Source: Nitrososphaeria archaeon
GTDB lineage: Archaea; Thermoproteota; Nitrososphaeria; Nitrososphaerales; JAAOZN01
DNA: 64,000 nucleotides
Direction: 5' to 3'
NCBI GenBank assembly: GCA_029775855.1
Contig: JARVJZ010000001.1
Location: forward strand, 124,001-188,000
Shown here one piece after another: positions 947 through 45,910 of this stretch; the stretch's first letter is position 1; every line of letters begins with the position of its first letter. A model generated the notes under the pieces. That model was not told the DNA's origin. It did not search any database and was given only the letters and a program-made list of their open reading frames with translations. The position numbers and the translations under genes were made by a program.

Positions 947-1106
947 GCGGGGGTTAGTCCAAACACCCCCAACCCGAGCCAGGTCAAAGCCTTGAGTTAG
1001 GCGACAAAAGGGGGCAGAGCAAAAGCGCCTAAACTCAAGATCTGCTCGGTCAGCCGTTCGTGGGTTCAAAACCCTCTAGTAGAGGGTGAAACTCCCACCC
1101 CCCGCA
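947..1106 (+). tRNA. tRNA-Leu(CAA) gene interrupted by four short putative introns
   Basis: Read as exons 947-955, 973-988, 1010-1018, 1034-1068 and 1091-1106, the gene gives an 85-nt class II tRNA, the usual tRNA-Leu length. Parts: acceptor GCGGGGG (947-953) with CCCCCGC (1099-1105) and discriminator A; D arm CCC/GGG with GAGCCAGGTCAAA; anticodon stem GCAGA (1014-1018) with TCTGC (1041-1045); loop CTCAAGA, anticodon CAA; variable arm with CGG/CCG stem; T stem GTGGG (1060-1064) with CCCAC (1094-1098). The removed pieces are 17, 21, 15 and 22 nt, at about positions 9/10, 22/23, 31/32 and inside the T loop. Exact junctions are ambiguous because the exon edges share A or T runs. A second GCGGGGG at 937-943 is an alternative 5' acceptor strand but would lose U8. 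A TATA-like TTTAAAT lies at 905-911. Confidence 0.82.
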
Positions 1107-37148: not shown

Positions 37149-38381
37149 ATGTCGGCTAGAGAGCGTCTAATACCTAGACAACCAGAAGTAAATATAGGCA
37201 CCGCAGGACACGTAGATCACGGCAAAACCACACTTGTAGAAGCAATAACAGGCATATGGACAAGTGCACATAGCGAGGAACTAAAGCGTGGTATAACGAT
37301 AAGAGTAGGCTATGCTGACGCTGCTTTCTATAAATGTCCAAACTGCCCTAGTCCTGACCGATACTCTCCTTATCCGAGGTGTCCTAACTGCGGCTCTGAA
37401 ACGACCCTTTTAAGAGTTGTGAGCTTTGTGGACTGCCCAGGACACGAGAGCTTGATGGCTAACATGCTTTCAGGCGCTGCGGTTATGGATGGGGCTATAC
37501 TTGTTATAGCCGCTAATGAGCAGGTACCCCAACCGCAGACTAGAGAGCATCTGCTAGCTTTGGAGATGCTAGGCATGAGGCATATAGTAATAGTTCAGAA
37601 TAAGGTAGAGTTGATTGATGACCAGAAGGCGCTTGAATCATACCACGCCATCAAGAGGTTTACTGCTGGTACTGTAGCTGAGAACGCAGCTATTATACCG
37701 ATTTCAGCGCAAAATCGGATAAATATCGATGCAGTAATAGAAGCTATCGAAACACATATACCCACACCTAAACGCGAGACACAAGCTCCACCATTTATGC
37801 AGATTTTACGCTCATTCGACGTAAATAAACCTGGAATTAAAGTGCAGGACCTTAAAGGTGGGGTCGTTGGAGGCACACTGCTCCGAGGAGAGCTAAAAGT
37901 TGGTGATGATATAGAGATAAGACCAGGGTTAATAGAAGAAAAAGCCAAACCCCTGTTTACAAAGATTAAAAGTCTTGGTACAAGCGCAGGTCTTGTAGAC
38001 AGTGTGAGGCCTGGGGGGTTAATTGCTATAGGTACGTCTTTAGATCCTGTGTTGACAAAGTCTGATTCACTTCTCGGCTGTGTTGTAGGTCATCCTAATA
38101 CGCTTCCACCAATTCTAGATTCTTTAACCATGTATGTTCAGCTCTTTGAGACCGCTGTAGGTTCGCCAGAGTTGGTTAAAGTCGAGAAGATAAGGAGCGG
38201 TGAGGTTCTAAGGCTTAATATAGGCACAGCCGTCACCTTAGGCAACGTCTCAGCATCCAAAGAAAATGCCGTTGAGGTTAATCTCAGACGCCCAGTCTGT
38301 GCTGATAAGGGTGCAAAAGTCGCTATTTCTAGGCGAATCGGTGACCGTTGGCGCCTTATAGGCGCTGGCACAATTACTTGA
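37149..38381 (+). CDS. eif2g: Translation initiation factor aIF2 gamma subunit
   Basis: 410 residues. GTPase G1 NIGTAGHVDHGKTTL, switch region KRGITIRVGYADA, G3 DCPGHE, G4 NKVE, and the zinc knuckle CPNCPSPDRYSPYPRCPNC. Domains II and III follow (FDVNKPGIKVQDLKGGVVGGTL). It binds Met-tRNAi to the small ribosomal subunit. ATG start; 46 bases after S6e. Confidence 0.97.
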   Translation: MSARERLIPRQPEVNIGTAGHVDHGKTTLVEAITGIWTSAHSEELKRGITIRVGYADAAFYKCPNCPSPDRYSPYPRCPNCGSETTLLRVVSFVDCPGHESLMANMLSGAAVMDGAILVIAANEQVPQPQTREHLLALEMLGMRHIVIVQNKVELIDDQKALESYHAIKRFTAGTVAENAAIIPISAQNRINIDAVIEAIETHIPTPKRETQAPPFMQILRSFDVNKPGIKVQDLKGGVVGGTLLRGELKVGDDIEIRPGLIEEKAKPLFTKIKSLGTSAGLVDSVRPGGLIAIGTSLDPVLTKSDSLLGCVVGHPNTLPPILDSLTMYVQLFETAVGSPELVKVEKIRSGEVLRLNIGTAVTLGNVSASKENAVEVNLRRPVCADKGAKVAISRRIGDRWRLIGAGTIT

Positions 38382-38391
38382 GGTTCCAGCT

Positions 38392-38766
38392 TTGGAGGTA
38401 GTCTTAGATTCAAGTTTTCTTTTAGAGTGGGTTTCGCGCCCCATCAAAAGAATTGAAGAGTTAGAACTAAAGTTGGGAAAAGTTGAGTTTGTTGTATTAG
38501 ATGCTACAATAAAAGAACTAGAGAAACTCGCATCTGCAACTGGGGTAAAGGCTAAAAAAGCTTCAGCAGCGCTAGAATACGTCAAGAATCTTAAGAGAGT
38601 AAATGTAGTCAACATAAACTCAGATACTGACTTAACAATCTCTAGATACGCTGCGAAACACGGATCCGCTGTCGCAACCTTAGATCAAGAACTACGGAGA
38701 AGATTAAAAGAAACAGGTGTGACAGTCCTCACTTTACGAGATGATAACTTATGGATAGACAGGTGA
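38392..38766 (+). CDS. PIN-domain nuclease-like protein (aIF2 cluster type)
   Basis: 124 residues, TTG start. PIN pattern: VVLDSSFLLEW (first Asp), VVLDATIKELEKLA, INSDTDLTISRYAAKHGSAVATLDQELRRRL, with the acidic metal site. The archaeal copy in this cluster is related to eukaryotic Fcf1/Utp24, an rRNA-processing nuclease, so a ribosome biogenesis role is more likely than a VapC toxin role. No antitoxin partner. Confidence 0.88.
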   Translation: MEVVLDSSFLLEWVSRPIKRIEELELKLGKVEFVVLDATIKELEKLASATGVKAKKASAALEYVKNLKRVNVVNINSDTDLTISRYAAKHGSAVATLDQELRRRLKETGVTVLTLRDDNLWIDR

Positions 38767-45816: not shown

Positions 45817-45910
45817 GCTCCGGTGGTGTAGCCCGGTCAAGCATAGCGGCCTTACCTGAAAACGGGGCTAGTCGAGTCGCTGACCGCGGGTTCAAATCCC
45901 GCCCGGAGCA
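45817..45910 (+). tRNA. tRNA-Glu(TTC) with an 18-nt intron inside the anticodon
   Basis: Acceptor GCTCCGG (45817-45823) with CCGGAGC (45903-45909), discriminator A. D arm GTG/CAT; anticodon stem GCGGC with GTCGC; T stem GCGGG/CCCGC with TTCAAAT. The 25-nt anticodon loop becomes the normal CTTTCGA (anticodon TTC) if 45854-45871 is removed, giving a 76-nt tRNA. The junctions split the anticodon after its first base (34/35), not at the usual 37/38. Reading TAC (Val) as anticodon is rejected because it would leave no proper loop and the body is Glu-like. Confidence 0.85.

Follow-up and report, generated by a model that had tools for sequence, protein, structure and literature searches.

Can a tRNA gene be interrupted four times and still supply its cell with a tRNA? 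The question is raised by a 160-nt locus (positions 947-1106, plus strand) in a 64,000-nt stretch of archaeal DNA, here called the window. Three introns are the ceiling for a single tRNA gene in the available portions of three papers, which give it as "a maximum of three introns" (PMC4033280), as the known maximum in the words "as many as three" (PMC3293823), and as the stated maximum (PMC8450103); the original prediction for this locus had named the same limit, for Thermoproteales. A literature search that covered papers, as distinct from databases such as GtRNAdb, found no four-intron tRNA gene. We conclude that an uncultured archaeon of the order Nitrososphaerales very probably uses this locus as its working tRNA-Leu(CAA) gene, which has four short introns that appear to be spliced by proteins. 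Further, a second copy of the acceptor strand in its leader may be what makes the first intron removable.

A tRNA gene in five exons

The sequence and its orthologs divide the locus into five exons and four introns. All features of the gene and its leader lie on the plus strand, and boundaries were set by cutting after the second base of each 3-nt bulge (marked ^) of a bulge-helix-bulge (BHB) motif. Exon 1 (947-955) consists of the 5' acceptor strand GCGGGGG with U8 and U9, and is identical in three genomes. It is followed by intron 1 (956-972, AGTCCAAACACCCCCAA; BHB GGGG-UU^A ... CCCC-AA^C). Exon 2 (973-987) supplies the D arm, positions 10-21, and leads into intron 2 (988-1008, AGCCTTGAGTTAGGCGACAAA; BHB GGUC-AA^A-GCCU ... 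AGGC-GACA-AA^A). Exon 3 (1009-1017, AGGGGGCAG) covers positions 22-30 and precedes intron 3 (1018-1032, AGCAAAAGCGCCTAA; BHB GGGC-AG^A-GC ... GC-GCCU-AA^A). Exon 4 (1033-1070) runs from A31 through the anticodon loop CUCAAGA (anticodon CAA), the variable arm, and the 5' strand of the T stem to UUCAAA of the T loop, where intron 4 (1071-1092, ACCCTCTAGTAGAGGGTGAAAC) sits in a strict BHB built on the T stem, UUCA-AA^A-CCCUCU ... AGAGGG-UGAA-AC^U. Exon 5 (1093-1106) comprises U60, the 3' strand of the T stem, the 3' acceptor strand CCCCCGC, and the discriminator A.

The introns are 17, 21, 15, and 22 nt long and fall at tRNA positions 9/10, 21/22, 30/31, and 59/60, as counted by hand; removing them leaves 85 nt, a complete class II tRNA-Leu with anticodon CAA. 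Both this product and the absence of any interruption at 37/38 had been claimed, and both are borne out. ARAGORN and Rfam scans of the window made no call at 947-1106, as is expected of a gene with so many interruptions. Judging by eye from the translations, the gene lies between two ORFs: a small one, zinc-ribbon-like, that follows a UMP-kinase-like ORF, and an NfeD-like one on the opposite strand.

Orthologs without introns fix the splice sites

A DNA search recovered orthologs from the two remaining genomes of the genus and from additional families of the order. One genome of the genus, G002 (contig CALJAQ010000080.1, 5,086 bases), is that of an uncultured Nitrososphaerales archaeon; the host order is therefore Nitrososphaerales, and an initial assignment to Sulfolobales or Thermoproteales was abandoned. 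Our locus, G002, and the third genome of the genus, G001, specify the same mature tRNA (85/85 identical), whereas their introns differ in length and sequence. Within this genus (family f1) the gene has four introns in our genome and in G002 and three in G001, which lacks the T-loop intron. Family f7 (G008 and G022) has three, at 9/10, 21/22, and 30/31, and family f13 (seven genomes) has two, at 21/22 and 30/31. Two are present in G013 (UBA141), three in G006 (21/22, 30/31, and 59/60), one in G007 (30/31), and none in G016. Thus, for each of the four introns there is at least one ortholog that lacks it at the predicted point: introns 1 and 4 are absent from G013, G014, G036, G066, and others, introns 1, 2, and 4 from G007 (locus L062), all four from G016 (L066, the ortholog without intron 3), and intron 4 from G001. 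Outside the genus, intron 1 is absent from the orthologs of other families, those of f7 apart. This comparison bears out the claim of a tRNA-Leu(CAA) gene split by four introns and supports reading the locus as one real gene, interrupted four times and never at 37/38.

The orthologs also correct the exact cuts. Intron 1 stands as first delimited; introns 2, 3, and 4 had to be shifted by 1, 1, and 2 nt. The earlier boundaries disrupt BHB pairing and yield the T loop TTCAACT, unlike that of the ortholog without the intron: G001 reads GTGGGTTCAAATCCCAC there, giving an uninterrupted T loop TTCAAAT, which is exactly what our corrected mature tRNA contains. Similarly, the perfect ACCCTCT/AGAGGGT stem described for intron 4 survives as a 6-bp inner helix, CCCTCT/AGAGGG, and the extra pair belongs to the central helix TTCA/TGAA.

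The distribution suggests that the introns were probably gained stepwise. Those at 30/31 and 21/22 are the most widespread among relatives, and the 9/10 intron is common only to one other family; the 59/60 intron is probably the most local gain, within the genus. In a tree of EF-2, our genome and G002 group together with G001 outside (94/92), which means that intron 4 was either gained in the ancestor of our genome and G002 or lost in G001; the tree does not resolve the relation of f1 to f7. The EF-2 matches in the two f7 genomes (L157 in G008 and L160 in G022) contain an in-frame TAA. The intron 4 of G002 keeps the stem with a different loop, and the 59/60 intron of the distant G006, which differs in sequence, forms a strict BHB of its own there. 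Other Leu genes of relatives (L075 and L076 in G022, L064 in G021, and L057 in G006) likewise have T-loop introns in this position, with similar ends. The presence of such introns in several Leu genes, as if moved between them, fits repeated or transposed gains.

Splice motifs and chance

BHB details were compared in six genomes. In introns 1, 3, and 4 the central helix is complete (4/4 pairs), and the cut follows the second base of each 3-nt bulge; intron 2 has 3/4 central pairs (one mismatch) and a 4-bp inner helix. The inner helix of intron 1 is 2 bp long in our genome and 5 bp in G008 and G022, and its outer helix is a single base pair; the inner helix of intron 3 is missing in several orthologs. 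A full BHB arises at a random pair of sites in shuffled sequence with a probability of about 0.0012, and the BHBs here sit at sites fixed beforehand by the tRNA, apart from a few sliding choices. Chance is excluded by this figure together with the 85 exon bases held identical in three genomes amid differing introns. The interruptions have the marks of archaeal BHB tRNA introns: the motif itself, a restored tRNA, and orthologs without them.

When the complete precursor is folded with a nearest-neighbor model, all strict BHB registers are minor states (probabilities of about 0-0.01 for introns 1-3 and 0.04-0.17 for intron 4), so an order of folding or help from proteins must be assumed. A rod-like minimum-free-energy fold joining the D arm and the variable arm was set aside; judged by eye, it does not seem to be conserved in other orthologs.

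A second acceptor strand in the leader

The probable TATA box TTTAAAT (905-911) is conserved as GCAGTTTAAAT in all three genomes of the genus. It lies 31-32 nt before a leader copy of the 5' acceptor strand, GCGGGGG (937-943), and archaeal promoter spacing would place the transcription start probably at about 933-937, adjoining this copy. Between copy and tRNA lies a spacer, CGC (944-946) in our genome, which varies among genomes in sequence and in length (2-7 nt). The 9/10 intron was found in 5 of the 400 genomes searched in the order, and all five have the second GCGGGGG 2-7 nt upstream of the tRNA; it occurs in 0/12 genomes without that intron, where the best match has 3-5 mismatches. The association (Fisher, 1.6e-4) overstates independence, because intron 1 may have been gained only once. 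Searching the phylum for two GCGGGGG followed by CCCC gave 9/398 genomes, among which our locus alone resembled this tRNA, judging by the matched letters, so the scan gave no evidence of such an arrangement in other genomes. A narrow literature search surfaced no published description of such a leader copy.

What could the copy do? The intron-1 BHB uses bases of the acceptor stem. Conceivably, the leader copy stands in for the real 5' strand (947-953) in the precursor: it would pair with the 3' acceptor strand and keep the body of the tRNA closed as long as the real strand is engaged in the BHB of intron 1; once splicing is complete, the real strand would regain its partner and the leader would be trimmed, a final swap that we assume. 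Partition-function folding is consistent with the first step: the probability that the leader copy is paired to the 3' strand is about 0.7-1.0 from 37 to 75 C in all five genomes. When the copy was replaced in silico, the real strand paired with the 3' strand instead (mean 0.3-1.0), and the intron-1 BHB became less probable. In f7 its probability was 0.34-0.44 with the copy and no more than 0.05 after replacement; in f1 the corresponding values were at most 0.03 and no more than 0.003, strict-BHB figures kept low by a predicted hairpin that favors a shifted register. Folding of the spliced forms gave no sign of the expected return to the real strand: in four genomes the leader copy stayed ahead by 0.8-4 kcal/mol at 37 C, and in G022 by about 12, in a model that ignores tertiary contacts and RNase P. 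This result counts against the proposal. We give a little under an even chance to the joint proposal that the leader copy is a placeholder in an exchange of acceptor strands and that pairing with intron 2 hides intron 3 and the anticodon loop (below).

The copy could instead be a neutral relic of the insertion of intron 1, devoid of function. A single origin of that intron would reduce the co-occurrence in five genomes to one event, and a copy that competes in silico with the real strand after splicing looks harmful, not useful. Against this, the 7-mer is unchanged in all five genomes, while the upstream 24 nt of f1 and f7 match no better than chance (5-8/24) and their spacers share nothing; further, a 7/7 acceptor copy lies upstream of 0/25 of the other tRNAs of our genome. 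We consider a relic rather unlikely, although it is the best of the alternatives.

Less likely still is the reading in which 937-943 is the real 5' acceptor strand and intron 1 is longer (about 944-972), including the second GCGGGGG. The copy does pair with the 3' strand at 0.7-1.0, even after splicing, and it lies about as far from the TATA-like box as a tRNA start does. U8, however, is nearly universal in tRNAs and is present in all orthologs without intron 1; with the leader copy as the mature strand, position 8 would be C, A, or G in the three f1 genomes, whichever two bases were kept. The conserved BHB UU^A/AA^C, with its inner helix of 2-5 bp, uses the second copy in 5/5 genomes. Rescue by C8-to-U8 editing would call on an activity described, in the part of the source available, as unique to Methanopyrus (PMC3695527). 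A reading that costs three genomes their U8 and leaves a conserved BHB out of account is, in our view, improbable; we retain exon 1 at 947-955, with 937-943 as a leader copy.

Predicted pairing of intron 2 with intron 3 and the anticodon loop

Within intron 2, CUUGAGUUAGGCG (991-1003) is complementary to 1026-1039 (CGCCUA-a-ACUCAAG), a segment made up of the last bases of intron 3 and the anticodon loop. The two can form 13 bp, interrupted by a single bulged A where intron 3 is spliced; in our genome this duplex reaches -20.1 kcal/mol (z = -6.0 against shuffles). It is strong in 8/14 orthologs (ours, G001, G002, G008, G022, G036, G066, and G006; z from -3.1 to -6.1) but not in the six others. 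When intron 2 is removed from our sequence, the folding probability of the intron-3 BHB rises from 0 to about 0.6-0.7, which suggests that intron 2 may have to leave first and may thereby set the order of splicing. The same conserved duplex could make introns 2 and 3 the two sides of one co-processed element, leaving fewer than four separate introns. Yet each has its own BHB, G007 has intron 3 without intron 2, and the mature tRNA needs the exon that separates them, AGGGGGCAG; we judge this very improbable and count four introns.

Evidence for a probable working gene

Exons that stay identical while introns diverge argue for strong selection on the product. As had been suggested, the assembly (98.4% complete, precisely 98.44%, in six contigs) was searched with the mature sequence for a second Leu(CAA) gene, and none was found; the two other full-length matches are Leu genes with anticodons CAG and UAG. 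That this is a decaying or unused copy of a normal Leu(CAA) gene elsewhere, as four interruptions and the roughly 1.6% of the genome that may be missing could suggest, is the least probable of all the alternatives, given 85/85 exon bases kept in three species-level genomes amid changed introns and flanks and no Leu(CAA) match beyond the orthologous locus in our genome, G001, G002, G008, or G022.

The genome has two tRNA-intron endonuclease genes (PF01974) elsewhere. One, L132, matches the catalytic subunit, EndA, of Aeropyrum, Sulfolobus, and Pyrobaculum (E from 8e-42 to 2e-34), and aligns with Aeropyrum EndA (3p1z_B of 3p1z, E 8e-42) gap-free across GYYGQPLDVEKPRGADF. We take this region to be the crenarchaea-specific loop, with a lysine at its key position. 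The gene content agrees with a tolerant (alpha-beta)2 endonuclease having that loop and lysine, where the tetramer and the assignment of the loop residues are predictions. The crenarchaea-specific loop gives broad specificity, for which its lysine is reported to be needed (PMC6379350). The second PF01974 gene is a weaker, more distant match whose stretch before KYLV lacks a histidine present in L132; it looks like a structural subunit.

From these parts, the following course can be proposed for transcription, cutting, ligation, and the order of splicing. The transcript would fold so that each intron end lies in a BHB motif, the heterotetrameric (alpha-beta)2 endonuclease would cleave every 3-nt bulge after its second base, and a tRNA ligase, presumably RtcB, would join the five exons into the 85-nt tRNA.

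Other tRNA loci

Many further tRNA genes of the genome (L026, L028, L029, L030, L114, L119, and L124) seem to be broken by at least one intron, several of them in the D arm. At L030, a short direct repeat, GCCTAG...GCCTAG, surrounds the insert and may bear on how introns arrive. In the window, 45817-45910 is a 94-nt Rfam tRNA match without an ARAGORN report, probably an intron-containing tRNA; 38323-38403 is called tRNA-Ile(TAT) by ARAGORN without an Rfam report and is possibly false. G001 has further Leu tRNA genes (L036 and L043), each with an insert and neither with a clear counterpart in our assembly; the counterparts may be hidden in gaps between contigs or carry more interruptions.

Discussion

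The closest parallels are the multi-intron tRNA genes of Thermoproteales such as Pyrobaculum (PMC8450103, PMC4033280, PMC4090602). In the accessible parts of these accounts, their introns are likewise short, BHB-bounded, and at non-canonical sites, 30/31 and 59/60 among them, and are removed by an (alpha-beta)2 endonuclease, as proposed here. Their maximum is three introns, as opposed to four here and in G002, in the order Nitrososphaerales, and those parts mention no duplicated acceptor strand. Caldiarchaeum subterraneum, also outside the Thermoproteales, has introns in the D, variable, and T arms and several multi-intron tRNAs; the portion of its description available reports no four-intron gene (PMC3293823). 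In a red alga, Cyanidioschyzon merolae, a single tRNA gene can have introns in its D, anticodon, and T arms, according to the available part of that report (PMC9602550); this is a eukaryote with three introns, in contrast to an archaeon with four. Permuted and split archaeal tRNAs are also joined through BHB motifs, and the leaders of split tRNAs pair before splicing (PMC3218864). Here, unlike in those systems, a single gene carries all the pieces in collinear order, and its leader contains a second copy of part of the tRNA itself.

These results would raise the published count of introns in one tRNA gene, as given in the text available, from three to four, outside the order in which such genes are usual. 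Related genes with zero, one, two, three, and four introns around a similar tRNA bear on the debate over late gain of non-canonical introns. Moreover, a gene missed by both tRNA finders that were run suggests that tRNA counts for such genomes may be too low. Finally, the duplicated acceptor strand poses the question of how cleavage of an intron is possible if its splice motif has to compete with the acceptor stem for bases. The leader copy may be a new device to that end; if so, a built-in strand exchange would permit an intron whose splice motif uses the acceptor stem.
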